Of a stretch of 64,000 bases of DNA, positions 3,062 through 49,700 are shown piece by piece. A model generated the notes under the pieces. That model was not told the origin of the DNA, did no database searches, and saw only the letters and a list, made by a program, of their open reading frames with translations. Positions within the stretch are counted from its first letter, which is position 1; each line of letters starts with the position of its first letter. The position numbers were made by a program, and so were the translations under genes. The DNA is from Rhizobium sp. Root483D2 (GTDB taxonomy: Bacteria > Pseudomonadota > Alphaproteobacteria > Rhizobiales > Rhizobiaceae), in assembly GCF_001426685.1 (NCBI RefSeq), contig NZ_LMFB01000005.1, positions 1,205-65,204 on the forward strand. The letters run 5' to 3'.

Positions 3062-4159
3062 ATGATCACGCTCGAAAACATCAGGAAGGATTTTCCCGGA
3101 AAGACCGGGGCCGTCACGGCACTCGATGGCGTCAACCTTTCGATCGCCAAGGGAGAAATCTTCGGCATCATCGGCTCCTCCGGCGCTGGAAAATCCACGC
3201 TGGTCCGGCTGATCAATCTGCTGGAGCGCCCGACCGGCGGCGAGGTGATCGTCGACGGCCGCGCCGTGACGGATTTCAAGGGCGGGGACCTGCGGGATTT
3301 GCGCCGTCAGATCGGCATGGTGTTTCAGCATTTCAATTTGCTCAGCGCCCGCACGGTCTTCGGCAATGTCGCCTATCCGCTGGAACTGACCGGCGAATAC
3401 GGCCGCCACGAGATTGCGGACAAGGTCAAAACCTTGCTGGCGCGGGTCGGGCTTGAAGCCCATGCGCAAAAATATCCGCGGCAATTGTCGGGCGGCCAGA
3501 AGCAGCGGGTGGGGATCGCCCGCGCCCTTGCCTGCGCGCCGAAAGTTCTTCTGTGCGACGAGGCGACCAGCGCGCTCGACCCGCAGACCACGGGCTCGGT
3601 GCTTGAGCTTTTGCGGCAGATCAACCGCGACCTCGGCGTGACCATCGTGCTCATTACCCATGAGATGGATATCGTTCGCCGCACCTGCGATCGTGTCGCG
3701 GTCCTCGACCATGGGCGGGTTGTCGAGACAGGGCCGGTCACGCAGGTCTTCCTGCATCCGCAACACGAGGCGACGTTGAAACTGGTGCGGGAAGCCGAAC
3801 CCGATGGCGGGCTTTTGAGCAATATCGCAGCCGCCGGCGTGTCGGGGCGGATCGTGCGGCTGACATTCCTCAACGATGCGGCGCGCAAGCCGCTGCTTGG
3901 CAAGATTGCCCGCGAACACGGCGCCGATTACCAGATCCTCGCCGGCCGGGTGGGCAATATCCGCGACACCCCCTATGCGCAATTCACCGTGTCGCTCTCC
4001 GGGCAGGATGTCGCGGGCGCCATTGCCGGATTGCGCGCCGGCGGCGTCACGGTCGAAGTCCATGGCGGTGAGCTCCATGACGCGGATGGGGAAAAGAGGC
4101 CTTCGCTGACGCCCTTGCCGGCTCTGCACAGGGACGGAGGCCTTCGTCATGTCGTTTGA
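3062..4159 (+). CDS. metN: MetN-type ABC transporter ATPase with NIL domain
   Basis: The 365-residue ATPase has Walker A GSSGAGKST (38-46), the signature LSGGQKQR (142-149) and Walker B LLCDEATS (163-170). A C-terminal ACT-like NIL domain (about 265-345) gives substrate-dependent inhibition in MetN of other bacteria. It would energise the permease encoded by the next gene, which overlaps it by 11 bases. By family this is a methionine importer. Its position in one operon with two sulfur-oxygenating flavoproteins suggests a methionine-like or other organosulfur substrate here. Confidence 0.9.
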   Translation: MITLENIRKDFPGKTGAVTALDGVNLSIAKGEIFGIIGSSGAGKSTLVRLINLLERPTGGEVIVDGRAVTDFKGGDLRDLRRQIGMVFQHFNLLSARTVFGNVAYPLELTGEYGRHEIADKVKTLLARVGLEAHAQKYPRQLSGGQKQRVGIARALACAPKVLLCDEATSALDPQTTGSVLELLRQINRDLGVTIVLITHEMDIVRRTCDRVAVLDHGRVVETGPVTQVFLHPQHEATLKLVREAEPDGGLLSNIAAAGVSGRIVRLTFLNDAARKPLLGKIAREHGADYQILAGRVGNIRDTPYAQFTVSLSGQDVAGAIAGLRAGGVTVEVHGGELHDADGEKRPSLTPLPALHRDGGLRHVV

Positions 4160-17941: not shown

Positions 17942-18329
17942 GGGATACAGTCTCGCAAAGCATGACCGGCGCGCTGGTGAATGCGGCTCTCAAATCGGCA
18001 TGCAGGTTTTGCGTTGTCTGGCGGATCGGCGGCCAGAAGAGCCACCCGGAATTCCACCGGGTCCGTGGTGATTGCAGGACTTATAAACCGGATTTTTGCA
18101 GCGACGCAATGCTCAAATCGGTGTGTCGGAAATTGAGAGTGAGGATCAGCGGCTCCCTCGCTAAATATATACCATATCTCCGCAAGCCGTTAGTGAGTAC
18201 CGGCGTTTTCGGATGCTAGTAGACAACCTGCGCTGGGCATGTAAGGTAAATAATCGTATCGAACAAGTCATCTTGATTACGGCCCCTCAGCTCAAAACTT
18301 TTCCCTAAACGCATCCAAACCATTCTCAC
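17942..18329. other. 388-bp intergenic region upstream of the SulP gene
   Basis: No open frame here looks coding. A short hairpin, ACCCGG (18044-18049) with CCGGGT (18057-18062), lies about 105 bases before the SulP start on the minus strand and would be in its leader. An AT-rich patch around 18163-18180 could hold the minus-strand promoter. The part near 18220-18330 is less GC-rich than its surroundings. I see no recognisable riboswitch. Confidence 0.4.
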
Positions 18330-18602
18330 TCATCTGCTAAGTCCGTAAACGAAAGCTGCGATCCCCACACTAGCCGCAATTGCCAGTGGTTGAGACCGGA
18401 TGTATTGGCGAATATCGTCGATCGCAGACTTCTTGGCTCGGGATGAGGCTTCCTGGGCATATGCTTCTAGTCGGGACTCCTCCGCTTGTAAGGCAGCCAA
18501 GCCTTGCCGTTTACCTGCGTTTCGATCCGTCGCTGCCAGCGCCTCATCGACAAGAGGAGCCGGCTCTTCTTCCGGCTTATGTGTTTTTACATCATCGGTC
18601 AT
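18330..18602 (-). CDS. small C-tail-anchored protein, ElaB/YqjD-like
   Basis: The 90-residue protein has a charged, helical N-terminal two-thirds and a single hydrophobic segment at the C-terminus (PLAIAASVGIAAFVYGLSR). This layout is typical of ElaB/YqjD/DUF883 proteins, which tether to the inner membrane and are linked to stationary phase and ribosomes in E. coli. The assignment rests on layout more than on motif. It lies 10 bases downstream of the next minus-strand gene, so the two are an operon. Confidence 0.65.
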   Translation of the reverse strand: MTDDVKTHKPEEEPAPLVDEALAATDRNAGKRQGLAALQAEESRLEAYAQEASSRAKKSAIDDIRQYIRSQPLAIAASVGIAAFVYGLSR

Positions 18603-18612
18603 GCTTACCCTC

Positions 18613-19005
18613 CTATTGCGTTTTCTCTGTGCCAGCGGGAGCCACGGACTGGGAATCTCCGCCTGTACCGGATTCGGCTGTCGGATCGCTGTCAGTGGGG
18701 GCGGGTTGCATTTTATCGCCTGCAGGCGGGGTGTTATCGATGACGTTTTGATCTGGTGGCGTCACGACGGCGTTTGTCTCGCTTGTGGCCGGCTGGGTGT
18801 TGGTTGCGGCATTGTTATCGATTGCCTCGCCATATTGTCCCACCACGGCCCAGGCAACGGCGGCCAAAAGCAGGCCGCCGATCAGCACCATCAGGACTGG
18901 TTTTCCCAATGGGCCCTGCCGCGTTTGCGCGGGGCTCGCTTGCACGACTTTTTCCGTCTCCGCTGTCGAGACCGTTTCGCCGCGTTCATCCTTATACGTT
19001 GCCAT
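18613..19005 (-). CDS. single-pass membrane protein with disordered Pro/Thr/Asp-rich tail
   Basis: The 130-residue protein has a polar N-terminus (MATYKDERGETV), one membrane segment (about 36-55) and a low-complexity periplasmic tail rich in Pro, Thr, Asp and Asn. ATG 19005 is chosen because AGGAAGGA sits six bases upstream; an ATG at 19077 is less likely. No function can be assigned. Together with the downstream small membrane gene it resembles the stress-induced small membrane proteins of rhizobia. Confidence 0.7.
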   Translation of the reverse strand: MATYKDERGETVSTAETEKVVQASPAQTRQGPLGKPVLMVLIGGLLLAAVAWAVVGQYGEAIDNNAATNTQPATSETNAVVTPPDQNVIDNTPPAGDKMQPAPTDSDPTAESGTGGDSQSVAPAGTEKTQ

Positions 19006-19354
19006 GATGGTTCCTTCCTGAATATCGCATGATGTAACCGTTGGTGGCGGTAAATGTTCCGTGTCTTGGCAGAGCATAGAGCTGCCGCTGCCCGGCCGGG
19101 AGAGAACTGCGCTTGCGTTGGCACATTGAGGATTTGTGGGAGGGCGCCGCCGCCGCCGATATCATCTTTTGGAGTACTTGCGGGGGAATGCAGGCGTGGA
19201 GAGCGAGGTGTGATCGCAGTCCTTGGCTAAGGCCCTTATCTCCGCCCGAAGATCACCAACGGCCTCTTGGTGTCTTAACCCATTGGGAGCGAGATAATCT
19301 GGCGCATTCCGTGGAACAATTGGAACGCGTCTAGGTTTCAACAGCCCGAATTCG
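19006..19354. other. 349-bp divergent intergenic region
   Basis: It separates the minus-strand membrane-protein pair from the plus-strand glycan cluster and must carry promoters for both directions. A perfect palindrome CCCGGCCGGG lies at 19091-19100. I see no clear -35/-10 pair, and no convincing ribosome site before the glycosyltransferase start at 19355. No coding frame looks real. Confidence 0.4.
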
Positions 19355-20653
19355 ATGATCTCAGTCGCGCTCAACACGCAGATTAAACGTGACCACCGCA
19401 ATCTGGACAAGGTGGAACTGAATGCGCTTTCGCCCGATGTGGCCGAATTGATGAATGAACTATCACGTCCCAAAGATAGGCCGCTAGAACTGATGAAACC
19501 AAATTCCAGACCCCGGCGGCTCGTCGTCATCAGCGATTTTCAGGATGGGGAAGCGTTCGCTGCGCGCGTGCCCACAATCGAAGAACTTTGCGCAAAATGG
19601 CGGAGCGAAATTGCGGCGCAGCGTGCTGCAGATGTTACCCTGGGCCACGATTTCGAAGTGGAGGGCGGGTATATCGAGCGTTTGCCGCTGGCATGCGTCA
19701 AAGCTGGTATTGTCGATGCCGTCGAGATCTGGACCCATTGGCGCGGTGATGATCCGCCTTCGGCGGATGTGCGCCATGCGCCGCATCTGGTCCGGCGATC
19801 GTTTCAGCTCAATGGTCCGCAAGCGCCGTTCGCATCAAACGACATGCTTGCTCATATCCTAACGTTCGGTGCGCCGGATATTCTTTGCGTCTGGGGGCTC
19901 GGCGTGTCGGCGGAGATTCTGGCTGCCTGTGAAACGAGCTACAAGATTTACAATTCGATCGATGCGCCGGCCTTGCGGGTTCCGCCCGAGGTCAGCCGGC
20001 ATTTCGATCTGGTGCTGACGGGGGCGCAGTGGCAGTCAGACGAGGTCACAGCCCGGCATCCCGGCATGAAAACCGCCATCCTGCCGATCGGTCCGGAATT
20101 TGCGTCCGACAGCATGTTTTATCCGATCGACGGGCCGAAACCCTATGACATCATCTATGTCGCCGCCGCTCAACATTACAAGCGGCACGACATTCTCTTC
20201 GATGCGATGGCAAAACTTCCACGGTCCATCAGCGCGCTCTGCGTCTTCGGTTATGGCGAACTCGGAGATGCCCTTCGGGAGCGTGCCCGTGACCTCCAGA
20301 TCAATGTCGATTTCGTTGGGCCGCCGGGCGTGCCGTTTGTGCAGGTTAACCGGCTGATGAACCAAGCCAAAATCGGTGTCGTCTGCGGCGTCGATGATGG
20401 GGCTCCTGCCATTCTCACCGAATATATGCTTTCGGGCCTACCGGTGCTTGCCAACAGCGCGCTCAGCTGTGGACTTCAATACATCACACCGCAGACGGGA
20501 CGGGTGGCGGCTTCAGGCGTTTTTCACGAGGGAATCCTGGATATGCTCGCAAGCCTTTCAGATTTTTCGCCACGGCAAGCCGTCATCGACAAATGGACCT
20601 GGCCTCATTCTGTGCGCAAACTACAGGCTCTGACAGGGCTTGGGATACATTAG
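19355..20653 (+). CDS. GT4-like glycosyltransferase, stand-alone
   Basis: The 432-residue protein has the two-domain GT-B layout. The C-terminal half carries YDIIYVAAAQHYKRHDIL and the nucleotide-sugar-binding stretch DDGAPAILTEYMLSGLPVLAN, in which the glutamate binds the donor. It is cytoplasmic, with no signal peptide. ATG 19355 is the first ATG after an in-frame stop, but it lacks a good ribosome site, so ATGs at 19451 or 19493 are possible starts. It is the first gene of the cluster and the only one not fused to another enzyme. Confidence 0.8.
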   Translation: MISVALNTQIKRDHRNLDKVELNALSPDVAELMNELSRPKDRPLELMKPNSRPRRLVVISDFQDGEAFAARVPTIEELCAKWRSEIAAQRAADVTLGHDFEVEGGYIERLPLACVKAGIVDAVEIWTHWRGDDPPSADVRHAPHLVRRSFQLNGPQAPFASNDMLAHILTFGAPDILCVWGLGVSAEILAACETSYKIYNSIDAPALRVPPEVSRHFDLVLTGAQWQSDEVTARHPGMKTAILPIGPEFASDSMFYPIDGPKPYDIIYVAAAQHYKRHDILFDAMAKLPRSISALCVFGYGELGDALRERARDLQINVDFVGPPGVPFVQVNRLMNQAKIGVVCGVDDGAPAILTEYMLSGLPVLANSALSCGLQYITPQTGRVAASGVFHEGILDMLASLSDFSPRQAVIDKWTWPHSVRKLQALTGLGIH

Positions 20654-20727
20654 AAATCTTTTAAGAGAGCTCCGGAACAAAGCCTTGGAATCGTAGTTCT
20701 CGTGCGTCTCTCAACAGCGGATGTGCA

Positions 20728-23079
20728 ATGAATCTCTCCAGTTCGTTCTTTCAGACGTCACCAGCAGTTCCGGCTCGCAATGCTCCGCTGATTTGTTTTT
20801 CCCATCTGCGCTGGGATTTTGTTTTGCAGCGTCCCCAGCATCTGATGGGCCGCTTCGCGCAAGACCGGCAGGTGTTTTTCTTTGAAGAGCAGATCCCTAC
20901 AGACCATCATCTCGCCTATCTGGAAATCCACCCTTTTGAAGGCACGACAGTCAAATCGGTTCGCCCGCGCATTCCGCATTGGTGGTCCGAGGCGGAGCGT
21001 GAAACCGCGCTCGGCAAGCTCCTGGACGAACTGCTGGCGCTGAATGACGCGATACGTCCGATCCTGTGGTTCTACACGCCGGTCATGTACAGTTTTGCGC
21101 GCCATGTGGATGCGTCGGCTATCGTTTATGATTGCATGGACGAACTGGCGAATTTCAAATTCGCACCACCCCGGCTGAAGGAAACGGAGGCGGCGCTGAT
21201 TGCCCGCGCCGATGTGGTGTTTACCGGCGGTCACAGCCTCTACGAGGTGAAGGCTCATCTGCATGACAATATCCATCCATTCCCTTCGAGTGTGGATGTC
21301 AGCCATTTCCGCACGGCGCGGGACGAAAGTGTTGAGCCATCCGATCAGAAGGCGATCCCTGGGCTGAAGCTTGGTTATTACGGTGTCATCGACGAACGTC
21401 TGGATCTCGTCTTGCTGGCTGCCGTGGCCAAGGCGCGGCCGAACCTGTCCTTTATTTTCATTGGCCCGGTCGTGAAGATCGCCCCGGAAGATCTGCCGAA
21501 GGCTGCCAATATCCATTATCTCGGGCAAAAGCATTACAGCGAATTGCCGGCCTATCTTTCAGGATGGGATGCGGCCTTGATGCCGTTTGCCCTGAACGAA
21601 GCGACGAAGTTCATCAGCCCGACCAAGACGCCGGAATATCTGGCCGCAGGGCGCCCGGTGGTCAGCACGCGAGTGACGGACGTCGTTCGCCATTATGGTG
21701 ATCTGGAAGGTGTCTTTCTGGCGGATGAGCCTGAAAGTTTTGCCGCCGCCTGCGACGAGGCGCTTGCCCTGAAAAAGGCAGGTGACGCATGGCTGACACC
21801 GGTCGATGAGATGCTTTCGGGTTCGTCCTGGGATCAGACGTTCTCGGCCATGAGTGTCCTGGTGGAAGAGGCCGTGACAAGGAGGCTGTCTCCCGTGAAA
21901 TCGCCCAGAAAGAGCCGTCCACATGGGTCAGGAAAAACTAATCCGTCCAATTATGACTACCTGATTGTTGGCGCGGGTTTTGCGGGTTCTGTTCTGGCTG
22001 AGCGGCTGGCCTCCGATGGCGGAAAGCGTGTGCTTGTCTGTGACCGCCGTCCGCATATTGCCGGCAATGCCTACGATGTCCAAAACGAAGACGGCATCCT
22101 CATCCACCAGTATGGGCCTCACATCTTCCACACCAACAGCGAGGATGTTTTCAACTATCTCTCCCGGTTCACCGCCTGGAGACCCTACGAACATCGGGTC
22201 CTTGCCGATGTCGATGGTCTGCGTTTGCCTGTGCCGATCAACGTGACGACCCTAAACGGGCTTTATGGCCTTGATCTGCACAACGAAGCGGAGGCGGCGC
22301 GCTTTTTGGCCGGGCGCGCCGAGCCGTGCGATCCGATCGTCACGTCGAAGGATGTGGTCGTGTCGCAGGTCGGCAGTGATTTGTACCGGACCTTTTTCGA
22401 AGGCTATACCCGCAAGCAATGGGGACTTGATCCCTCGCAGCTCGACAAATCGGTGACCGCGCGCGTTCCAACGCGCACAAATGCCGACGACCGGTATTTT
22501 CTGGATAATTTCCAGGCGATGCCGCTTCATGGTTATACCAAGATGTTCGAAAACATGCTCGATCATGACAATATCACCGTCATGACCTCAACGGAATATG
22601 CGGATATCCGCCGCGATTATCAGGTGGGCCACACGATCTTTACCGGCCCGATCGACGAATATTTCGACTACCGCTTTGGCCGTTTGCCGTATCGCAGTCT
22701 CAAATTCCAGCACGAGACGCATGACACGCGGCGTCTGCTTCCCGTTGGTGTCGTCAACTATCCCTCGGAGTCGGTTCCCTATACGCGGATCACCGAATAC
22801 AAGCACCTGACCGGGCAGATCCATCCGAAAACCAGCATTTCCTATGAGTTCGCCTGCGCAGACGGAGATCCCTATTACCCCATTCCACGGCCGGAAAACC
22901 AGGCGCTTTACAAGCAGTATGAGGCGCTGGCGCGTGAGCATAGCGATGTGACGTTTGTCGGACGGCTTGGCACCTACAAATATTACAATATGGATCAGGT
23001 GGTCGGCCAGGCCTTGGCCACATACAGGCGCATGACCAAGGCCGATGCGGGCGATGTCGTTACTGCCCGTGCGCAATGA
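20728..23079 (+). CDS. glycosyltransferase-UDP-galactopyranose mutase fusion
   Basis: The 783-residue protein has two complete parts. Residues 1 to about 390 are a GT-B glycosyltransferase (HLRWDFVLQRPQHLM at the start, SPTKTPEYLAAGRPVVSTR in the donor site). After a basic, Ser/Pro-rich linker, residues 409 to about 775 are a UDP-galactopyranose mutase with the FAD motif GAGFAGS, GPHIFHT, TRKQWG, YTRITEYKHLTGQ and the terminal GRLGTYKYYNMDQ. Mutase converts UDP-Galp to UDP-Galf, so the fused transferase plausibly adds galactofuranose. The two parts are in one frame without a stop or a good internal start. The stop overlaps the next start (ATGA). Confidence 0.9.
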   Translation: MNLSSSFFQTSPAVPARNAPLICFSHLRWDFVLQRPQHLMGRFAQDRQVFFFEEQIPTDHHLAYLEIHPFEGTTVKSVRPRIPHWWSEAERETALGKLLDELLALNDAIRPILWFYTPVMYSFARHVDASAIVYDCMDELANFKFAPPRLKETEAALIARADVVFTGGHSLYEVKAHLHDNIHPFPSSVDVSHFRTARDESVEPSDQKAIPGLKLGYYGVIDERLDLVLLAAVAKARPNLSFIFIGPVVKIAPEDLPKAANIHYLGQKHYSELPAYLSGWDAALMPFALNEATKFISPTKTPEYLAAGRPVVSTRVTDVVRHYGDLEGVFLADEPESFAAACDEALALKKAGDAWLTPVDEMLSGSSWDQTFSAMSVLVEEAVTRRLSPVKSPRKSRPHGSGKTNPSNYDYLIVGAGFAGSVLAERLASDGGKRVLVCDRRPHIAGNAYDVQNEDGILIHQYGPHIFHTNSEDVFNYLSRFTAWRPYEHRVLADVDGLRLPVPINVTTLNGLYGLDLHNEAEAARFLAGRAEPCDPIVTSKDVVVSQVGSDLYRTFFEGYTRKQWGLDPSQLDKSVTARVPTRTNADDRYFLDNFQAMPLHGYTKMFENMLDHDNITVMTSTEYADIRRDYQVGHTIFTGPIDEYFDYRFGRLPYRSLKFQHETHDTRRLLPVGVVNYPSESVPYTRITEYKHLTGQIHPKTSISYEFACADGDPYYPIPRPENQALYKQYEALAREHSDVTFVGRLGTYKYYNMDQVVGQALATYRRMTKADAGDVVTARAQ

Positions 23080-26000
23080 CCAGGCGAAGTCATCGGATTG
23101 TCCTTGCGACCGATAGTCTCGATCCATCGGGCATGGGCGAACATATGCTGACGCTTGGACGGTCGCTCCAGCCACAGTTCGACGTCACGCTCGCAGCCTA
23201 TGGCGACATGGAACTTTTGGCAAAAGCGGCAACTTGCGGGCTCGCGGTGAAGGCCATCGGCGATATCGGCGCGTTCGAGCTTTGGTTGCGCTCGTCCAGC
23301 GTTGCTTTGCTTCATGTCCATGCGGGTATCGGCTGGGAGGGGCACGCGATCGCAAACGCCGGTTCGGCCTGCACTATTCCCGTCATCCGCACGGAGCATC
23401 TGCCCTATCTTTTGACTGACACCGAGCAGCGGGAACAATATGCGCGGGAAAGCGAGGCGCTGTCTCATCACATTGCGGTCTCGGAATCGTCCCGCGCAAG
23501 CTTTCAAGAAAACGGCGTTGACGGCCAGCGGATAACGGTGGTGCGCAATGGTATTTTCGCGCTTCCGGAAGCCCGGTCTGCCAAAGCGGAGCTTGGCCTT
23601 GCAGGAAAGACGGTTCTTTTGACCGTGGCGCGGTTTTCCAAGCAAAAAGATCACGCGTCGCTGATCAGGGCGCTGCCTGCGGTTTTAGCTGCCGATCCAT
23701 CTGTCGTCCTGTTGCTGGTCGGCAAGGGTGAGGAGATGCAAGCGGTGCAGGCGCTGGTCGAAGATCTGTCGCTGTGCACGAATGTCCGGTTTCTGGGGCG
23801 CCGCACAGATATCGCAGAACTGATGGCCAGCGCCGACCTGTTCGTGCTGCCCTCGCAATTCGAGGGCCTGCCGCTCGCAGTGCTTGAGGCGATGTCGCTG
23901 GGACTGCCCGTTGTCGCAACCCGGATCGGCGGCACTGTCGAGGCGCTTGGAACCGGCCATCCCTTCCTTGCGGAAGCTGCCAATCCTCAGTCTCTCTCAG
24001 GCGTTCTGATTGAGGCACTCGGAAATCGATCTGAGGCAAAAGCGTCAGGGCAAGCCGGCCGCGAACGGTTCCACGCCGAATTTTCAGCACAGCGCATGGC
24101 GGATGAAACCGCCTCCGTCTACCGCCGCTTTCTCTCAGAACAGGCATTTGATGCACAAGGACATGCTTTCATGAACAAGACACGTATCGGCTTCATCGGC
24201 GTCGGTGGTATTGCCCACCGGCATCTTGATATTCTCGCCGGTTTCGAAGATGTAACACTGGCCGCCTTTGCCGACCCGGATTTCGACCGCGCCACGCAGG
24301 CCGCGTCGCGGTTCGGCGCCAAGGCTTTCGACAGCCACAGAGCGATGCTGGACCAGGAAACGCTGGATGCCGTCTATATCTGCATTCCACCCTTTGCCCA
24401 TGGCGAGGCCGAGCGCGATCTAATTGCGAGGGGTATCCCGTTCTTCGTCGAAAAGCCGATCACGCTCGATATCGGGCTGGCGGAAGAATTGTCAGCGGCA
24501 GTTGAGGCCGCCGGGCTCATCACAGGTGTGGGCTATCACTGGCGCTATCTCGATACTGTTGAGGAGGCACGCCGGCTTCTTGCCGATAATCCGGCGCAGC
24601 TTCTGTCCGGCTATTGGCTGGATCAAACGCCGCCGCCGCAATGGTGGTGGAAGCAGGATCGTTCGGGCGGCCAGATGGTCGAGCAGACGACGCATATCGT
24701 CGATCTCGCCCGTTATCTTGTTGGAGAGGTCACGGAAGTCTATGGCCGTACCGGCTTCAAGGAACGGCCGGAATTTCCCGGCCTCGACGTACCCGCCGTC
24801 ACCACCGCGAGCCTCACCTTTCAATCGGGCGTCATTGCCAATATTTCCTCGACATGCCTGCTTGGCTGGAGCCACAAGATAGGCCTGAATATCTTCGCCG
24901 ACCGCCTGGCAATCGAACTGACGGATCATGATATCATGGTCGACGTGGGCGCCGGCAGGCCGGTCCGGCAGGCCGAGGGTGATCCGGTCTGGCGGGAAGA
25001 CCGCGATTTTGTTGATGCGGTACGCGGTGGCGATAATCATATCCGCTGCACCTATGCGGATGCGCTGGCAACGCACCGGCTTGCGCTTGCGGTCGCATCC
25101 TCGGCACGCAGCGGCGAGCCGGTCGGCGTTGAGGCGCCGGCTCTTCACCGCAATGCAATGGCACCACTCCAGCATCAGCCCCGCATGGAGGCGCCGCAAG
25201 GCCTTGCGCCCGGCCATCGGCATATCCGCTCGCTCGGGATCGAGAGCCCCGGAAAAGCATATCACTTCGAGTATGAGGAGGGGCCGCCCGCAGACGGCCA
25301 TGTCCGGCTGGACACGCTTTACACCGGTTTTTCCGCCGGAACCGAACTCACCTTCATTAAGAACACCAATCCTTATTTTCACTCCCGTTTTGACGGTGGC
25401 CGTGGCGTGTTCATCGAAAATGAGCCCGACCTTCGTTACCCGGTTCCGTTCCTGGGTTATATGGAGGTGGCCCGCGTCTCTGAAAGCAAAGCTTTCGGCT
25501 TTCAACAGGGCGATGTCGTTGCCACGACCTATGCGCACAAGACCGGCCACACCGCCGATCCGTTCCACGACGTGCTGATCCCCATGCCTGCCGATATCGA
25601 TCCCGTTCTCGGCGTCTTCGTGGCGCAGATGGGACCGATTGCGGCCAATGGCATCCTGCATGCCGACGCGGATGCCCTCGGGAACAATGTCTTTGCGCTT
25701 GGCGCGGGGATTGCCGGGCGCCGGGTGGTGGTTCTGGGGGCCGGCACGGTGGGCTTGATGACGGCGTTGTTTGCGCAGAAACTCGGAGCGTCTGACGTCG
25801 TCATTGCCGACCCCTCGGAATTCCGGCGCGGCAAGGCGCAGGCCATGGGTCTGACGGCGATGAACGAGGAGGAGATCTGGCAGCATGCGAAGGCACGCTG
25901 GCACAATGGAGGCAACGATCGCGGCGCCGATATCGTCTTCCAGACGCGCGCGCAGTCCCGAAGCCTGCATGTGGCGCTGAAAGCGTTGCGGCCGCAGGGC

Positions 26001-26306
26001 ACGGTGATCGACCTGGCCTTCTATCAGGATGGTGCCGATGCGTTGCGGCTTGGCGAGGAATTCCATCATAACGGCCTGAACATTCGCTGCGCTCAAATCA
26101 ACCGCGTTCCGCGCGGACTGTCCCCGCTTTGGGACAGGCGCAGGCTTGCCGGCGAGACCGTGCAACTGATGAAAAGCCACGGCGCATTGATCCACGAGCA
26201 TATGATCACCCATATCGTCCCCTTTGAGGATGGGCCGAAATTCCTCGCCGATCTGGTGGAAAACCGGCCGGAATTCCTGCAAATCGTTTTCAAGGTCCAT
26301 GAATGA
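23076..26306 (+). CDS. triple fusion: glycosyltransferase, Gfo/Idh/MocA and MDR oxidoreductase
   Basis: The 1076-residue protein has three parts. Residues 1-365 are a GT4 glycosyltransferase (LLTVARFSKQKDH, then FVLPSQFEGLPLAVLEAMSL). Residues 366 to about 700 are a Gfo/Idh/MocA dehydrogenase with IGFIGVGGIAHRHL and FFVEKPITLD. Residues from about 720 are a medium-chain dehydrogenase/reductase with a second Rossmann motif GAGTVG near 888. In the MDR part the usual zinc-ligand CGTD position reads SAGTE (about 752-756), so the catalytic cysteine is missing. An ATG at 24171 (residue 366) is preceded by AAGGA and could also yield a separate oxidoreductase. It overlaps both neighbours by ATGA. Confidence 0.88.
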   Translation: MTRRSHRIVLATDSLDPSGMGEHMLTLGRSLQPQFDVTLAAYGDMELLAKAATCGLAVKAIGDIGAFELWLRSSSVALLHVHAGIGWEGHAIANAGSACTIPVIRTEHLPYLLTDTEQREQYARESEALSHHIAVSESSRASFQENGVDGQRITVVRNGIFALPEARSAKAELGLAGKTVLLTVARFSKQKDHASLIRALPAVLAADPSVVLLLVGKGEEMQAVQALVEDLSLCTNVRFLGRRTDIAELMASADLFVLPSQFEGLPLAVLEAMSLGLPVVATRIGGTVEALGTGHPFLAEAANPQSLSGVLIEALGNRSEAKASGQAGRERFHAEFSAQRMADETASVYRRFLSEQAFDAQGHAFMNKTRIGFIGVGGIAHRHLDILAGFEDVTLAAFADPDFDRATQAASRFGAKAFDSHRAMLDQETLDAVYICIPPFAHGEAERDLIARGIPFFVEKPITLDIGLAEELSAAVEAAGLITGVGYHWRYLDTVEEARRLLADNPAQLLSGYWLDQTPPPQWWWKQDRSGGQMVEQTTHIVDLARYLVGEVTEVYGRTGFKERPEFPGLDVPAVTTASLTFQSGVIANISSTCLLGWSHKIGLNIFADRLAIELTDHDIMVDVGAGRPVRQAEGDPVWREDRDFVDAVRGGDNHIRCTYADALATHRLALAVASSARSGEPVGVEAPALHRNAMAPLQHQPRMEAPQGLAPGHRHIRSLGIESPGKAYHFEYEEGPPADGHVRLDTLYTGFSAGTELTFIKNTNPYFHSRFDGGRGVFIENEPDLRYPVPFLGYMEVARVSESKAFGFQQGDVVATTYAHKTGHTADPFHDVLIPMPADIDPVLGVFVAQMGPIAANGILHADADALGNNVFALGAGIAGRRVVVLGAGTVGLMTALFAQKLGASDVVIADPSEFRRGKAQAMGLTAMNEEEIWQHAKARWHNGGNDRGADIVFQTRAQSRSLHVALKALRPQGTVIDLAFYQDGADALRLGEEFHHNGLNIRCAQINRVPRGLSPLWDRRRLAGETVQLMKSHGALIHEHMITHIVPFEDGPKFLADLVENRPEFLQIVFKVHE

Positions 26307-28543
26307 GCCCGCTCGAACCGCCGGTCCGTATCCTCTTCGTGTTCGCATGGCTGGTCGTGGGAGGGGAGGAAACCGAAGTCCGGCTTCTCGCCCGCAATCT
26401 CGACCGCGCGCACTACAAGCTCGATGTCGTCGCATGTTTCCGCAGGCCCAATATGCCGGAGCAGACGCATGAGCAACTGACGGCACTCGGTGTCGATGTC
26501 GATACGACACCTTACGAACTGTCGTTTCAGGACACGGTCGGCTATCTGGCACAGAAGATTCCGGGGTACGATATCGTGATCTCGTGCCAGAATGTTGCGG
26601 ACATATATCCGGCGCTGGAGCGTCTTCATCTGAGGCCGCCTTTGATCGAGCATGGCGGCCTGGTGTCGGAGGCCTTGGCGGGGCCGAAGCATTTTACCAG
26701 CCGTTATGTCGGCGTCTGCCGGTCCATACGCGATGCCGCCGCATCTATGATGCCGGGCCGTGAAGACGATGCGATCGAGATTCCGTCCATGGTGGACCTC
26801 GCGGAATTCGATCCGTCTCAGCGAAGTGCCGTGCGCGCATCACTCGGCGTCACGGACAGCAACGTTTTGATCGGCTGGGTCGGCCGTCTGGACCCCAAGA
26901 AAAATGTCGAGGATTTCATCGAAGCGGCTGCGATCGTGTATGCCACAGACGCTTCTGCGCGGTTCGTGGTCGTTGGCGGGCCGGATGCCTTCATGCCGGA
27001 TTATGCCATCCGGTTGACATCCCTGGTGGCCGCCCGCGGACTGGCTGGCGTCCTCACCTTCCTCGGAGACCGGAAGGATATTCCAGCGCTGCTGTCGGCT
27101 TTAGATATTTTCACCTGGCTGTCAAAAGGCGAGGGCATGCCCCATGTGATCGCAGAGGCGGGCGCGGCCGCCTTGCCGGTCATCGCCACGCCGGATAATG
27201 GCGCCCTGCAGCAGATCGAGGATGGGGTGTCCGGGCTGTTCGTTCCCTATGGTGACCCGGCTTCCGTCGCCACGACGATGAAGAGGCTGATCGCTTCAAG
27301 CGAATTGCGCGCAAGTCTTGGTAAAGCCTTGCGGCTAAAGGTCGAAACCCACTATAGCGTCGCCGCCGTGGTCCCCCAGTGGGAAGATCTCATACGGCAG
27401 GTCCTGGCAGAAAAGATGGCAGCACAGCCGACGGGACTGTTCCAATCCTTTCTGCAAGGCGGCTTCGAATGTTCCACGCACCGGTTGCGGGCGCATGAGG
27501 GTGAAACGGCCGGAAAACGCCTGGATGTCATTGCGGCGACCGGACACGATGTTCACGCGGCAAACGACTATTCGCAACTTGCCCGGCACGAAATCCGCAC
27601 GGTGCGGGATGGATTGCGCTGGCATCTGATCGAAACCGTTCCCGGACAATACGACTGGTCGAGTTTTCTGCCGATGCTCAAGGCGTCGAACGATACCGGC
27701 ACCCAGGTGATCTGGGACCTGCTGCACTATGGCTGGCCGGATGACATCGACATCTGGTCGCCGGATTTTGTTGCGCGTTTCGCCCGCTTTGCCCGTGCCG
27801 CAGCAAGCATCGTCAGGCAGGAAAGCGGCGCGGTTCCTTTCTATTCGCCTGTCAATGAAATCTCCTTCTTCTCCTGGGGTGGTGGCGATGCCGGCTATCT
27901 CAATCCTTTTGCGAACGGGCGCGGTTTTGAGCTGAAAATCCAGCTGGCGCGCGCGTCCATCGCGGCGATGGACGCCATTCTCACTGTCGATCCGCGTGCC
28001 CGCTTTGTCCATTGCGATCCGGTGATCAACGTCGTCCCCGAGCCGTCCCGCCCTTGGGAACGGCGGGTGGCGGAAGGTCATCGTCAGTCGCAGTTTCAAG
28101 GCTGGGACCTGATCGCCGGCCGGATGTGGCCGCAGATCGGCGGTGCGGAAAAATACCTCGATATTGTCGGCGTCAACTACTACCACAACAACCAGTGGAT
28201 TCACGGCGGGCCGCCGATCGACATGGATCACCCGCTCTATAAACCGCTGCGCACGATCCTGACCGAAACCTATGCGCGCTATGGAAAACCGATGTTTATC
28301 GCAGAAACGGGCATCGAGGCGGAGCGCCGAGAGAGCTGGATTGCCTATGTCCATGCCGAGGTTCAGGCCGCTTTGCGCAACGGTGTGCCGATCGAAGGCA
28401 TTTGCCTCTATCCCATCGTCAATCATCCCGGTTGGGACGACGACAGGGCTTGTGAGAACGGCCTCCTATCGATGCGGATTGAGGGGGCAGAGCGGCAGGA
28501 ATACGAGCCGCTTGCGAGGACACTGCGCAGTCTTCGGCGCTAA
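26303..28543 (+). CDS. glycosyltransferase-glycoside hydrolase (clan A) fusion
   Basis: The 746-residue protein starts with a GT4 glycosyltransferase (about 1-375; LIGWVGRLDPKKNVEDFIEA and KGEGMPHVIAEAGAAALPV). It continues with a TIM-barrel domain like the beta-glucosidase/6-phospho-beta-glucosidase group (about 385-735). Both clan-A acids appear in place: acid/base Glu519 in SPVNEISFF and nucleophile Glu668 in FIAETG, 149 residues apart. There is no signal peptide, so the hydrolase part is cytoplasmic. It may trim, proofread or transglycosylate the nascent glycan. It ends the cluster. Confidence 0.87.
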   Translation: MSPLEPPVRILFVFAWLVVGGEETEVRLLARNLDRAHYKLDVVACFRRPNMPEQTHEQLTALGVDVDTTPYELSFQDTVGYLAQKIPGYDIVISCQNVADIYPALERLHLRPPLIEHGGLVSEALAGPKHFTSRYVGVCRSIRDAAASMMPGREDDAIEIPSMVDLAEFDPSQRSAVRASLGVTDSNVLIGWVGRLDPKKNVEDFIEAAAIVYATDASARFVVVGGPDAFMPDYAIRLTSLVAARGLAGVLTFLGDRKDIPALLSALDIFTWLSKGEGMPHVIAEAGAAALPVIATPDNGALQQIEDGVSGLFVPYGDPASVATTMKRLIASSELRASLGKALRLKVETHYSVAAVVPQWEDLIRQVLAEKMAAQPTGLFQSFLQGGFECSTHRLRAHEGETAGKRLDVIAATGHDVHAANDYSQLARHEIRTVRDGLRWHLIETVPGQYDWSSFLPMLKASNDTGTQVIWDLLHYGWPDDIDIWSPDFVARFARFARAAASIVRQESGAVPFYSPVNEISFFSWGGGDAGYLNPFANGRGFELKIQLARASIAAMDAILTVDPRARFVHCDPVINVVPEPSRPWERRVAEGHRQSQFQGWDLIAGRMWPQIGGAEKYLDIVGVNYYHNNQWIHGGPPIDMDHPLYKPLRTILTETYARYGKPMFIAETGIEAERRESWIAYVHAEVQAALRNGVPIEGICLYPIVNHPGWDDDRACENGLLSMRIEGAERQEYEPLARTLRSLRR

Positions 28544-28925
28544 AAGGGTTGTGAGTGGCCGAATTCGGCGGCTTCCTGCCGCCGGATCGCACTGAGGCAA
28601 GCATGCCGTTCGTGTTGGCTCAGTCCGCCGGGTTGAACAGCGTGGTTTTTCCTCGCTGGGCGACGGATCGCCGGCTGCGGGCACCGGGCCGTGATGTAAA
28701 CATCCGCAGCGAATGGAACATGAAAAATTCAGCGGCGGCGGGCGGCGATACCTGAGCTGAAGGGCCGGAAAACGGCATATTTGCCCTTGATCCGATCATG
28801 ATGCCACCGTCGATGGCCAATGGAAATTCGTTCAAAACGGTCTTCTGGAAAGGGGTGATTAACCTTTATTTTCTATTGAAATGGGGTGTGCCCATTGCGC
28901 GTGAATTTTGAGTGAGCAGGTCCCT
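28544..28925. other. 382-bp intergenic region before ftsK
   Basis: A GC-rich hairpin, CGGCGG (28566-28571) with CCGCCG (28579-28584), lies 23 bases after the glycan cluster and may end its transcript, although no T-run follows. TTAACC at 28859-28864, just before an AT-rich stretch, resembles a CtrA half-site. That would suit a cell-cycle gene, but the second half-site is poor. No coding frame looks real. Confidence 0.4.
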
Positions 28926-31460
28926 ATGCGTCTTTCCCGAACCAATTTTTCGAACGGCTTTGATCATACAGGGGATCGGCCTGCAGACCCGGAAAATCAT
29001 CTGGGAAAAGCGGAGCGCCGCATCTATGGCGCTCCCGCCGATGTAAAGAGCGAGGAAGGCCCATATGAGGCCGATACCGACGCGATGGCTGAGATCGAGG
29101 GGCGGGGGGATGCGCCCGTCTGGCAGAGCGCGTTCGTGCTTGGACCCAACGTCCGCTTCACCCGGACCCCGGAAAGTGTCTATTCTAAGCGCCCCGCCGG
29201 CGAGATCCGCAAGGAAGCCGAAGAGCCGAACCAGCCTGTGCAGGATGTTGCCATCATAACCGTCCCCGCAGTGGTCGAACCGATAGAAACGGTCGTCGTT
29301 ACTGCGCAGCCTGTCCCGGTCGAGCCTGTGCCTGAAGAGAAGCCTGCCGTATCCGGTATTCAATTGCTGTCCTATCGTCTCAGGCAGGAACTGGAAGCGT
29401 CGCGCCTGGCTGCGAACGAACATGCTGAGCCCGCCGATCTCGATCTCGCCTGTTTTCCGGCCGAGCAGGAAGCCGTGGCCGCAGATGTGCTGGAACCGGT
29501 GACAAGGCAGGCCAGTTCCTTCCTGCATGTGTCGGATGAAGTGTTCTGGAACACATTGGATATGGATGCCGACATCAATATTCTGGCGCCGGTCATGCAT
29601 TGGCAGCCCCCAGAGGTTCATTCCGCCGCCGGTTCGGTGACGGCGCTCTACCGCGAAATCGGCGTGAAGGCGGCAGGCCGTTATGTTGCGGCGCCCAATG
29701 TTGCGGTACCTGTCGTGAGCAGCCCCGCGCCCGTCGAAACGACGCCGCCCATCGTTGAAGAGATCCGACCGGTTGTGGCAGAGCTCGCCGAGCCGGTTGA
29801 ACCTGTGCGCATTGCCAAGCCAGCCGTGGCGGTGTCCAGACCGATCCGCGCGGTGCGGCCCGATACGTTCGTGGCCATTCCCGAAATGACCTCGGATGCT
29901 GGGGCCGGCGAATATATTTTCCCTCCGGTGACGCTCCTGCAGGAACCATCCGTCCAGCAGACTGCTGTTATCACACAGGAAGCGCTGGAACAGAGCGCCG
30001 GCCTGCTCGAAAGCGTGCTCGAGGATTTTGGCGTGCGCGGCGAGATCATCGATGTCCGCCCGGGGCCTGTTGTGACCCTGTACGAATTCGAACCGGCGCC
30101 GGGCGTCAAGTCGTCGCGCGTCATCGGCCTGTCCGACGATATCGCCCGCTCGATGTCGGCGCTTTCGGCCCGTGTCGCCGTCGTGCCAGGCCGCAATGTC
30201 ATCGGCATCGAACTGCCGAACCCGGTGCGCGAGACGGTGTATTTCCGCGAACTGATCGAGTCTGAAAACTACGGCGAGACGCGTTTCAAGCTGGCCCTTT
30301 GCCTTGGCAAGACGATCGGCGGCGAGCCCGTTGTCGCGGAACTGGCAAAGATGCCGCATCTTCTGGTCGCCGGCACCACGGGCTCGGGCAAGTCGGTGGC
30401 GATCAACACGATGATCCTGTCCTTGCTCTACCGGCTGAAGCCGGAGGAATGCCGCCTGATCATGGTGGACCCGAAGATGCTGGAATTGTCGGTCTATGAC
30501 GGCATCCCGCATCTTCTGACACCTGTGGTGACGGACCCGAAAAAGGCGGTGATGGCGCTGAAATGGGCCGTGCGCGAAATGGAGGACCGCTACCGCAAGA
30601 TGTCGCGGCTCGGCGTGCGCAATATCGACGGCTACAATGCACGCGCTGCGATGGCGCGCGCCAAGGGCGAAACGATCCTGTGCAGCGTGCAGACCGGATT
30701 TGACCGCTCGACCGGCGAGCCGATCTTCGAACAGGAGGAAATGGATCTCGCGCCCATGCCCTATATCGTCGTCATCGTCGATGAGATGGCCGACCTGATG
30801 ATGGTTGCGGGCAAGGAGATCGAAGGGGCTATCCAGCGTCTGGCGCAGATGGCGCGTGCCGCCGGCATCCACCTGATCATGGCGACACAACGCCCCTCGG
30901 TCGATGTCATCACCGGCACGATCAAGGCAAACTTCCCGACCCGTATCTCCTTCCAGGTGACCTCGAAGATCGACAGCCGCACCATCCTGGGCGAGCAGGG
31001 CGCCGAGCATCTCTTGGGACAGGGCGATATGCTGCACATGGTCGGCGGCGGGCGGATTGCCCGTGTCCACGGCCCCTTCGTTTCCGACGAGGAAGTCGAA
31101 AAGGTCGTCGCACATCTGAAAACGCAAGGGCGCCCGGAATATCTTGGCACGGTCACAGAAGATGCCGAGGACATCGACGGGCCGGCCGAAGACGACGCTG
31201 CCGTTTTCGACAAGGGCGCAATGGCGGAAGAGGACGGCAACGACCTCTATGACAAGGCGGTCAAGGTCGTCTTGCGTGACAAAAAGTGCTCGACATCCTA
31301 TATCCAGCGCCGCCTGCAGATCGGCTATAACAGAGCAGCCTCGCTGGTCGAGCGGATGGAGCGCGAAGGGCTGGTCGGCTCGGCAAACCATGTCGGCAAG
31401 CGCTCGATCCTATCGGCAGGCCGCGAAGTCGCCGAAATGCCAACTGGCGACGAGGAATAA
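28926..31460 (+). CDS. ftsK: FtsK/SpoIIIE-type DNA translocase lacking membrane segments
   Basis: The 844-residue protein has a long acidic, Pro/Val/Glu-rich N-terminal region (1 to about 355) and then the FtsK motor: alpha domain, Walker A GTTGSGKS (483-490), Walker [12 protein letters not shown] (about 612-622), the [12 protein letters not shown] segment and a C-terminal winged-helix gamma domain (about 775-840). FtsK moves chromosomal DNA at the septum and activates XerCD. No membrane helices precede the motor, so this is the soluble form, probably a paralogue of a membrane-anchored FtsK elsewhere. ATG 28926 is preferred over a TTG at 28908. Confidence 0.88.
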
Positions 31461-46595: not shown

Positions 46596-46773
46596 GCTGA
46601 CGAAAACGCTATCGGCGGATTTGTTCGCGGTGGAACGAATAAATCGTAACATTCAACCGTTAACCAGGGCAGTGGCTATACAACAGCCGCTGCCGAAGTC
46701 CGGTTGACAAGCTTAAGGCGAGCCTAAAGAGTAAACCGGTTCAAAACGGCAGCGTTGGGGAGGACTTTTGTCT

Positions 46774-49700
46774 ATGCGCGCGTTTATCCGGTTATCAGCA
46801 CTTGTTCTCGGTGTTCTGGCATTTTCGCCCGCAGTTCAGGCGGCGGAGCAGGGCAGGCATATCGTCACCACGCAGGACGGCGATTATTTCGGCTTCGACC
46901 TGCGCACGCAACAGAACGTCTCCCTTGGCGATTGCGAAAAAATCTGTGTCGCAGATACGTCCTGCCGCGCCTTCACCTATAATCCGAAGGTGAAATGGTG
47001 CTTTCTCAAATCCGACTATAACACGTTGAACACATTCGCCGGCGCTGTCGCCGGCAAGGTTGTCGATGCTGCCTCGGCAGAACCGGATATTGGCGCGCCC
47101 CCGGCCTTGCCGTTCGTCACCGAACAACTGCTCACTGACGCCCGTGCCACCAAAGACAATCTCTCTGTGCTGTCGGACCAGGATGCACTGGGGCTGAAGG
47201 GCCGCAAGGACGCGGCCTATCGCGAGCTCGCGGCCGGCAATGTTGCCCCGGCATTGAAAGCCTTTCAGGGCGCGCTCGCCATCACGCCCGATGACGGCGC
47301 CTTGTGGATCGAAGCGGCGCGCGCTGCCAATCGCGTTTACGGTAATTCCGATTTTGCCACCCAGGCATCGCTTGCAGCGCTGAATGCCTATCAGCTGTCG
47401 CGCACCACGCAGGCGCGGGCAGAGGCATTGGAAGTTCTCGCTACCGCACTGAAAAATACCGAGAATTTTCGGGCCGCACTCAGCGCCTACAAGGCCAGCC
47501 TGGCGCTGGTCGAGGCGAAATCCGTCCGGGCCGATTACACGGACCTGCGCTCGCGCCAGGGTTTTCGCGTGACTGAACATAAGATTGATTCCGACAGTGC
47601 GACGCCACGCGTCTGCGTCCAGTTTTCCGAGCCGCTGGTCAAGGCCGGTGTCGATTACACGCCGTTCGTTCTCCTGGACGGCGCCACGCCCAAGGCTCTC
47701 GAAGCCAAGGGCAGCGAAATCTGCGTCGAGGGTCTGACCCACGGGCAGCGTTACAAGATTGCCTTGCGCTCGGGACTTCCGTCTTCCGTCGAGGAGCCGC
47801 TGGAAGCCAATGTCAATCTCGACGTCTACATTCCCGACCGCGCCGCAATGGTCCGCTTTACCGGCGACAGTTTCGTTCTGCCTGGCACGGCCCGCCGTGG
47901 CATTCCGATCGTTTCTGTAAACACCGCCAGCGCCAATCTGAAACTTTACCGCATCGGCGACCGCAACATTGCCTCGCTGCTGACGGCCTCGCAATTCCTG
48001 ACGCAGCTCGATGGCTATAGTGCCCAGCGCATCCAGGATGAAAACGGCGAAATGGTCTGGCAGGGATCGATCGACATTGCGACCGATCTCAACAAGGAAG
48101 TCGTGACCAGTTTCCCGGTCGATGAAGCGCTGCCGCAGCGTAAGCCGGGCGTCTATGTTTTGACCGCCGTTTCGGCCACGGGTGCGCGGAACGAATGGGA
48201 CAGCCAGGCAACGCAATGGTTCGTCATCTCGGATATTGGGCTTTCCACCTATTCCGGGACCGACGGGCTCTCCGTCTTTGCCCGCTCGCTGGCATCGGCC
48301 AAGCAGATGGCCGGGATCGAACTGACCTTGCTTGCCAAGAATAATGAAGTGCTGGGGACCTCGACCACCGACGCCGACGGCCGCGCGACATTCGATGCCG
48401 GCCTGCTGCGCGGCACCGCCGCCATGACGCCGGCCGTCATTACTGCAAAGAGCGGCGATGACGACTACGTTTTCCTCGACCTGACCCGCGCTGGTTTCGA
48501 CCTTTCCGACCGCGGCGTCACCGGCCGTGCGGCGCCTGGCGCCATCGACGTGCTGACCTGGACGGAACGCGGTATCTACCGCGCCGGCGAAACCGTGCAT
48601 GTCTCCGCACTGGCCCGCGACAGCGCCTCGATCGCGATTGAAAAACTGCCGCTGACCTTCATCTTCATGCGCCCCGACGGCGTCGAAGACCGCCGCGTTG
48701 TGAGCGACGGTGGCCTGGCGGGCGGCTATGCACTTGATCTGCCTCTGCAGCCCAATGCCATGCGCGGCACCTGGACGGTGCAGATCTTCACCGATCCGAA
48801 GGGTACGGCGATCAGCGAGAGGCAATTCCAGGTCGATGACTTCGTGCCCGACCGGGTCGAGTTCGACATGGCAAGCACCGCCAAGCAGATCGAGATCGAT
48901 ACGCCGGTACTGGTGACCATCGACGGCCGCTTCCTCTATGGCGCCCCGGCCGCTGGCCTGGAGCTCGAAGGCGAAGTCGGCCTGAAGCCGACCCGCGAAA
49001 CTGAAGATTTCAAGGGCTACCTGTTTGGTCTTGCCGATGAAGAGGCGACGGAAGACAGCCGTACGACATTGGAGGGACTGGAGCCGCTCGACGAAGATGG
49101 CAAAGCCACCTTCGACGTCACGTTGACGGACGTGCCCTCGACCACGCAATTGCTGAACGCCAATATCACCGTGCGTGTTCAGGAAGCCGGTGGCCGCGCT
49201 GTCGAGCGTTCGCTGACATTGCCGGTCAAGCCGGCGGGCGCCATGATCGGCATCAAGCCGGAATTTTCCGGCGATCTCGCGGAAAACGCCGTCGGCAAGT
49301 TCCACGTCATCGCCATCGACGAGAGCGGCGCCAAGCAGGCAAAGACCGGCCTGACCTGGAAGCTGCTGCGCGTCGAACAGGACTATCAGTGGTATCGCGA
49401 CGGCACCGCCTGGAAATATGAACCGGTCACATCCACCAAGCAGGTCTCGAACGGCACCCTGGACGTGACCACGGATGGCGGCGAGATCGCCATCTCGGCC
49501 GGTTGGGGCCGCTATAGGCTCGAATTGGAAACCGCCGATACCGACGGCCCGGCCTCCAGCGTCGAGTTCGATTCCGGCTGGTATGTCACCGCAAGCTCGA
49601 CGGAAACGCCGGATGGCCTGGAGGTTGCGCTCGACAAGCAGAATTACGCGATCGGCGACACCGCCAAGCTGCGCGTGTCGCCGCGTTTTGCCGGCGAAGT

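Follow-up and report, generated by a model that had tools for sequence, protein, structure and literature searches.

Why do three consecutive glycosyltransferase genes each carry a different second enzyme in the same polypeptide chain? This question is raised by a gene cluster of Rhizobium sp. Root483D2 that lies within a stretch of 64,000 nucleotides (contig NZ_LMFB01000005.1, positions 1,205 to 65,204 of the forward strand). We call this whole stretch the window, and we number positions from its first letter. The original prediction, made from the letters of the window alone, was that each transferase is tethered to the enzyme that makes its donor or edits its product, and that the cluster thereby works as an assembly line for one surface glycan, probably with galactofuranose (Galf). 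The reading that we favor, to which we assign a probability of roughly 0.55, is that the cluster is a stress-regulated cassette for a galactofuranose-type glycan or glycolipid, whose genes became fused in a stepwise manner.

The fused genes and their relatives

The cluster consists of four genes on the forward strand, whose transferases we number GT1 to GT4. GT1 (19355..20653) is an open frame of 432 amino acids for a GT4-type glycosyltransferase (PF00534, 42.4 bits against a cut-off of 26.4). It is followed by GT2~UGM (20728..23079; 783 amino acids), in which a GT4-type transferase (amino acids 1-385) precedes a UDP-galactopyranose mutase, or UGM (409-767). The third gene, GT3~GFO~MDR (23076..26306; 1076 amino acids), joins a GT4-type transferase (1-353) to a Gfo/Idh/MocA oxidoreductase, or GFO (369-683), and to an MDR oxidoreductase (about 700-1076). 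The last, GT4~GH (26303..28543; 746 amino acids), joins a GT4-type transferase (1-368) to a GH1-like glycosidase domain of clan A, or GH (371-746). All four frames are uninterrupted, and the G+C content at third codon positions (GC3) does not shift markedly at the joints. Each of the four proteins contains Glycos_transf_1 or Glyco_trans_1_4 above the Pfam cut-off, which bears out the predicted row of four GT-B glycosyltransferase genes. The predicted fusion partners of the last three genes were likewise recovered, with the clan-A glycoside hydrolase now narrowed to GH1-like. The two ATGA overlaps said to join the three fusion genes can be read directly from the sequence at 23076 and 26303. The cluster is thus real, but its proposed extent from 19355 needs correction. 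The first ~44 residues of GT1 read from this position have no match in the relatives compared, and P. qamdonense has a stop codon there, so that GT1 probably starts near 19493 and has about 386 amino acids.

An assembly artefact or frameshift was considered as the cause of the fusions and was ruled out, because the same three fusions recur in other, independently sequenced genomes. Sinorhizobium meliloti RCAM1115, several Rhizobium replicons and Pararhizobium qamdonense p2 all carry the fused trio, and in the last of these the proteins share about 97% identity with those of the window. Close relatives in three genera carry these fusions, rather than a set of separate genes. Among plasmid records, 109 match the protein P0004, which has a transferase part and the GH domain, and in 57 of these the match extends over 80% or more of the protein. 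A scan of genome contigs with an alignment of the GH domain confirmed at least 584 relatives; we kept the best 80 loci, a set that leans to close relatives.

In 58 of these loci the flanks are complete. All eight parts are found in 34 of them. In 12 the sole missing part is UGM, in 2 it is GT1, and the remaining 10 consist of just GT2, UGM and GH. By score threshold, GT3, GFO, MDR and full-length GT4 are either all present (48 loci) or all absent (10 loci), where the partial GT4 of L077 and L106 is scored as absent. This supports the view in the original prediction that the cluster is one functional unit. Locus L019 has a break within GT3~GFO, and GT1 is partial in locus L020.

The degree of fusion varies from joint to joint. 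Across the best 80 loci, GT2 and UGM are fused in 49 and separate in 9, while 13 have GT2 without UGM and in 9 neither is seen. GT3 and GFO are fused in 51 loci and separate in 7; GFO and MDR are fused in 29 and separate in 29. GT4 is fused to GH in 62 loci, of which three (L074, L077 and L106) rest on a weak partial match to GT4, and GH stands alone in 18. Unfused orthologues lie side by side in several lineages, as the original prediction had suggested looking for. In Stutzerimonas and cyanobacteria, GT2, UGM and GH are separate genes and the other parts are missing. In Azospirillum and several Phyllobacterium, the set consists of GT2~UGM and GH. Devosia has separate GT3, GFO and MDR genes in unchanged order, whereas in sphingomonads, Paracoccus and a small number of other lineages GT3~GFO is accompanied by a separate MDR gene. 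In most Rhizobiaceae all three of these parts are joined (exceptions are L043 and L052, and in L039 GT3 is separate).

Where the parts are unfused, they tend to touch. Separate GT3 and GFO genes overlap by 4 nucleotides in 4 of 7 loci, and separate GFO and MDR genes overlap by 4 or 8 nucleotides in 14 of 16 sphingomonads; at the other separate joints there are small gaps. Moreover, the GFO part in the window retains a methionine (FMNKTRIG) at the position where three unfused Devosia genes start. The simplest reading is that fusion proceeded one joint at a time, between neighboring genes that overlapped (ATGA or 8 nucleotides) and whose translation was probably coupled, although this direction of change is deduced from the comparison. 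On a tree of GT2, one change accounts for the GFO~MDR fusion. Other joinings also occur, e.g., a GH-GT protein plus UGM in Comamonas, and GH-GT-FAD proteins of about 1,250 amino acids in Erwinia and Pantoea. As a separate observation, a Deinococcus locus (L022, 11956-14295) has a GH domain in one chain with an acyl-CoA dehydrogenase, and the next gene encodes a PIG-L deacetylase.

The rival explanation that survives best is that this is an ordinary, strain-variable locus for the decoration of exopolysaccharide or lipopolysaccharide, in which the fusions are neutral by-products of overlaps and any link to stress is incidental. Loci of that kind commonly contain GT4-type transferases, UGM and Gfo/Idh/MocA enzymes. 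The spread is also patchy: among 101 relatives, 16 match P0004 at E <=1e-20, and in 13 of these the match includes the GH domain, while in 3 it covers the transferase part only. In addition, the upstream flank in P. qamdonense differs, with collinearity stopping at 18324, even though the DNA is 95% identical over the cluster. However, the content and order of the cluster are constant over many genera, unlike those of serotype loci, and an ECF-type (extracytoplasmic function) promoter motif is conserved (see below). Furthermore, no flippase, polymerase or priming enzyme is found in the cluster, in the scanned flanks or among the recurrent neighbor families that we identified. Overall, we regard this explanation as possible, though clearly less probable than the reading that we favor.

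The original prediction had stated that the whole window lacks a flippase, polymerase and priming transferase. This holds for the scanned open reading frames near the cluster; the scan covered part of the frames in the window. In particular, no Wzx/Wzy or ABC-type flippase, polymerase or exporter was detected in the window's cluster or the scanned flanks. The statement is qualified by a cellulose-synthase-type protein of family GT2 with a PilZ domain (55530-57713), which, together with a TPR-containing protein (61104-63284), perhaps represents a second, bcs-like glycan locus. In Azospirillum, Skermanella and Stutzerimonas an ABC exporter lies 3' of GH, which hints that the product is exported.

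The probable galactofuranose supply and the accessory enzymes

In the pathway that we propose, the core would be GT2, UGM and the GH1-like glycosidase, extended in many Alphaproteobacteria by a block of GT1, GT3, GFO, MDR and GT4. UGM would convert UDP-galactopyranose to UDP-Galf, which GT2 most likely consumes; this is the best-supported step. GT1, GT3 and GT4 would add further sugars. GFO and MDR would probably oxidize and reduce one hydroxyl of a donor or of the growing glycan, and the GH1-like domain, probably acting in the cytosol, may trim or re-transfer a sugar on the product. Fusion may fix the stoichiometry of these parts, but the function would not need it.

The assignment of UGM is based on strong profile matches (TIGR00031, 364 bits against 303.75; PF03275, 263 against 26.3; PF13450, 64 against 21.9), which span the whole enzyme and include its FAD-binding N-terminus. 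Its closest relative of solved structure is the D. radiodurans enzyme (3hdq, E 7e-166), and its ARVPTR and YTR motifs align with the catalytic arginines of 3hdq, which we take to be R198 and R305 in the numbering of the Deinococcus enzyme. Every tested genome with the cluster contains some UGM, and among the 101 relatives UGM is present in all 13 that carry the GH gene but in only 18 of the 88 that do not. These data point to UDP-Galf as a required donor that any UGM in the cell could supply, and they agree with the earlier suggestion that galactofuranose is probable.

The question of where this UGM must be located bears on the proposal that fusion is obligatory, i.e., that channelling demands a physical link between each transferase and its partner, which would explain the fused genes. 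It is consistent with the proposal that each fusion pairs a transferase with a partner and that the fusions are widely retained. However, all 12 tested genomes with UGM-less clusters in Rhizobiaceae carry exactly one UGM, as a separate gene outside the cluster (a thirteenth UGM-less locus, L071, lies outside the tested set), whereas among 36 genomes in which UGM is fused, only 3 have an extra separate one (L046, L054 and L056). Fisher's test gives 6.5e-9 for this difference, where the loci are related and the counts therefore not independent. The UGM-less state requires about six changes on the tree, at least four of them on well-supported branches. Beyond UGM, the separate GT3, GFO and MDR genes of Devosia and the separate UGM and GH genes of Stutzerimonas and cyanobacteria show the same parts in unfused form. 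We therefore consider obligatory tethering unlikely. What remains of the assembly line in the original prediction is a set of conserved fusions within one unit and a likely UDP-Galf donor; tethering as the principle by which it works is not supported. As a side observation, the separate UGM in four genomes with UGM-less clusters (L119, L120, L122 and L127) adjoins an open frame of about 2000 amino acids.

Of the two oxidoreductase domains, the GFO part is recognized by PF01408 (86.2 bits against 24) and, at its C-terminus, by PF22725 (48.5 against 27), and it resembles inositol and sugar dehydrogenases. ADH_zinc_N is also found in the protein encoded by 23076-26306. The MDR part matches solved relatives in the cofactor half only and, on visual inspection, appears to be without the zinc ligands that are typical of the family. 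Together, these two domains could oxidize and reduce one hydroxyl. Both families also occur in one chain in the bi-domain oxidoreductases of polysaccharide loci. These have the order MDR then GFO, while here GFO precedes MDR and both stand behind a transferase.

The GH domain of the protein encoded by 26303-28543 has no match in Pfam, including PF00232, and it is not among the GH1 matches of its own genome. In a Comamonas homologue PF00232 reaches 21.0 bits, which is below the cut-off of 22.6, and a sequence search of the PDB with the domain returned only weak GH1 matches. Nevertheless, an AlphaFold model (pLDDT 94, 42 aligned sequences) has a GH1-type barrel. When compared with solved structures, this model matches 8kap in Foldseek with a TM of 0.75, and the best VIA-align Z is 36 among the families in Foldseek's top list. 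The acid/base and nucleophile glutamates (E152 and E301) are invariant in 9/9 and 42/42 sequences, and in the model they sit at the ends of strands 4 and 7. In a weak profile alignment (prob 20, E 0.001), NE, NYY, ETG and the last Trp of the domain coincide with their GH1 counterparts, but the GH1 motif DNFEW corresponds to NHPGW, i.e., its Glu is replaced by Gly. This Glu contacts the sugar in GH1. Because of this replacement, the sugar handled by the domain may be non-standard, rather than the usual pyranoside. The domain should act in the cytosol, since the transferase in the same chain is of a cytosolic type. Thus, it shares with glycoside hydrolase family 1 the fold, the positions of both catalytic glutamates, NYY and the C-terminal Trp motif, and differs in escaping PF00232, in the DNFEW substitution, in being shorter and in its fusion to a transferase.

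A module for salvage or turnover, in which galactose released from internal glycosides by the GH1-like enzyme is re-activated to UDP-Gal and UDP-Galf, is the least probable explanation: galT, galK and a GH2 gene adjoin the GH gene in Methylomagnum and cyanobacterial loci contain GH2, STAS and galT, but galT is recurrent in cyanobacterial loci only, among the neighbor families examined, galK and galT are not annotated at L018-L020, four transferases point to synthesis, and the sugar-contacting Glu is replaced.

A candidate stress promoter

The proposed link to stress, which goes beyond the original prediction, begins with a motif of the kind read by ECF sigma factors, in particular EcfG. On the forward strand, GGAAC-N16-AGTT lies at 20674..20698, 54 bp upstream of GT2~UGM, and GGAAC-N16-GGTT lies at 19313..19337, 180 bp upstream of the probable start of GT1, where it is also present in P. 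qamdonense. A further GGAAC-N16-GGTT, on the reverse strand at 19036..19060, is upstream of two small divergent genes (18613-19005 and 18333-18602, reverse strand), which have no Pfam match and are annotated as hypothetical in P. qamdonense. The loose pattern GGAAC-N16/17-NGTT occurs six times on both strands of the window, and three of these sites precede genes of the cluster region. The strict EcfG motif, GGAAC-N16/17-CGTT, is absent from the window and rare close to GT1 or GT2.

In 73 alphaproteobacterial loci, the loose pattern precedes 40 of 69 GT2 starts, where 0.84 are expected. It is found at none of the internal domain starts (0/60, 0/62, 0/73 and 0/56), controls that lie within coding sequence. 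By group, it precedes GT2 in 28 of 30 Rhizobiaceae (0.15 in mononucleotide shuffles), 5 of 5 Phyllobacteriaceae/Brucellaceae, 1 of 3 Rhodobacteraceae and 4 of 6 plasmid loci. The spacing is exactly 16 in 40 of 40 sites even though 17 was permitted, while the sequence of the spacer is variable. It is important to consider that the loose pattern was chosen after the window's own sites had been seen. A fairer test is provided by 14 loci that were fetched afterwards, 11 of which have the motif upstream of GT2, although this set includes close kin of earlier loci, the site is the same in L137 and L138, and GT2 of L136 is aligned partially. For GT1, the motif lies at a distance of 20-160 bp from the corrected start in 10 of 30 Rhizobiaceae, in the one Phyllobacterium and in 2 of 6 Devosia-type loci, and in 0 of 2 Rhodobacteraceae and 0 of 2 plasmid loci. 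The corrected count for GT1 speaks slightly for the reading that we favor.

The genes near the cluster in relatives point in the same direction. DUF892 proteins are stress proteins. We found 18 DUF892 genes, all confirmed by Pfam, in 14 of the 80 loci (0.8 expected, or 1.0 when the density in the genus itself is used) and 13 catalase genes in 13 loci (0.3 expected), where the expectations derive from 41 relatives of the window's genome and not from the 80 genomes themselves. One or the other is present in 19 of the 80 loci. Among nine genomes with the cluster, including that of the window, DUF892 lies within 10 kb in 5, one of them a fragment, as against 0.2 expected; some of these nine overlap with the 80-locus set. 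Manganese catalase is present at L021, L025 and L031 by annotation only. A neighbor family (family 4) that was initially a candidate manganese catalase was rejected, as it is an SDR oxidoreductase, and was removed from the counts.

Published EcfG promoters, as given in excerpts of the sources, are similar. The consensus in Sphingomonas melonis is GGAAC-N17-20-GTT, and several EcfG-dependent promoters of this species end in GGTT or AGTT (PMC6599016); the motif of EcfG1 in R. etli is GGAAC-N16-CGTT (PMC3892343). The motif upstream of the cluster therefore shares with the EcfG (RpoE2) general stress regulon the -35 element GGAAC, the spacing and the GTT of the -10 element (PMC6599016, PMC3892343, PMC8103513), and the DUF892 and catalase genes near the clusters of many relatives are a further similarity. 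It differs in that the first base of the -10 element is rarely C and in its absence from sphingomonads. The source genome carries two NepR genes. In Rhizobiaceae and Phyllobacteriaceae, the operon would be read from this ECF-type promoter, most likely by EcfG; if so, the glycan would be made under stress. For the EcfG-dependent glycosyltransferase genes #3505-3509 of S. melonis, as they appear in these excerpts, a link to the cluster could not be made.

Several observations weigh against the reading that we favor, some concerning its regulation and others its history. The motif upstream of GT2 is found in 0 of 16 sphingomonads (2 of 17 under a more lenient pattern), only 2 of 9 Devosia-type loci, 0 of 4 cyanobacterial and 0 of 4 Stutzerimonas loci, and it is missing in L131, L139 and L140 among the loci fetched afterwards. 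At GT1 it is found in 0 of 15 sphingomonads. C opens the -10 box in 1 of 41 sites, and the window has AGTT where the canonical EcfG box is CGTT; moreover, the eight sites listed near nepR in the same genome (C1:83-92 kb) are all CGTT. Genome-wide, the pattern is not commoner than its reversed control (337 versus 355). DUF892 and catalase are both missing from the window's contig, and so their association is a tendency of relatives and not a property of the window's locus. With respect to UGM, a pairwise test that takes the tree into account yields only 3 pairs, with p 0.25. Finally, the GT3~GFO fusion requires 5 changes on the GT2 tree, which is unrooted. Because of this, the fusion series is not proven to be a one-way ladder, and we count these five changes slightly against our reading. 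The main doubts are that C so seldom opens the -10 box and that sphingomonads lack the motif; a related ECF sigma factor may read the promoter, but EcfG is the most likely one.

A more specific version of the stress-regulated cassette is considerably more speculative. A stress-sigma system might make an undescribed galactofuranosyl glycolipid or oligosaccharide that is rebuilt by the fused, cytosolic GH1-like domain, as a transglycosidase, under drying or oxidative stress, while the operon is turning into a set of multi-enzyme proteins. This idea relies on an analogy to plant SFR2, and we offer it as tentative.

In addition, we observed a distinct conserved stretch without a GGAAC motif upstream of GT2 in nine sphingomonad loci (L075, L080, L082-L085, L088, L100 and L101).

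Known systems and surrounding genes

Loci for glycans with Galf usually consist of UGM and transferases. Here, UGM is fused to a GT4-type enzyme, and the locus contains an oxidoreductase pair and a probably cytosolic GH1-like domain; it also has an ECF-type promoter motif and, in the window's cluster, no exporter. What is shared with known cases is a Galf-containing glycan, predicted for our cluster, from a small locus, e.g., the galactan of the Kingella kingae pamABCDE locus, as described in excerpts of PMC12269835. We did not use a report of Galf in the exopolysaccharide of R. leguminosarum as support, as the evidence in the excerpts (PMC7998805) rests on sugar forms in methanolysis products.

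Among the listed results of a literature search that covered few subscription journals, we did not recognize a description of the fusions or of the cluster. The parts are known, but their combination, the fusion series, the exchange of UGM and the promoter appear to be undescribed in the literature searched. The cluster would add an unrecognized, recurrent candidate glycan pathway to rhizobia and their kin, and possibly to the general stress response. It also offers, within one operon, a natural series from separate through overlapping to fused genes. Because UGM is supplied either in cis or in trans, it makes it possible to test under which conditions fusion is important and under which a common UDP-Galf pool is enough.

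A neighbor family resembling HWE kinases, of which one member was tested, occurs in 10 loci. In the window, the cluster is directly followed by an FtsK-type DNA translocase with a gamma domain (28908-31457), which also lies beside the cluster on P. qamdonense p2. The segment 31547-32759, which includes a gene for a DUF4143 ATPase, is missing from the otherwise collinear region of P. qamdonense. Further downstream, 46768-54305 encodes a bacterial alpha-2-macroglobulin (1818 amino acids) and then a PBP1C-type transglycosylase/transpeptidase.

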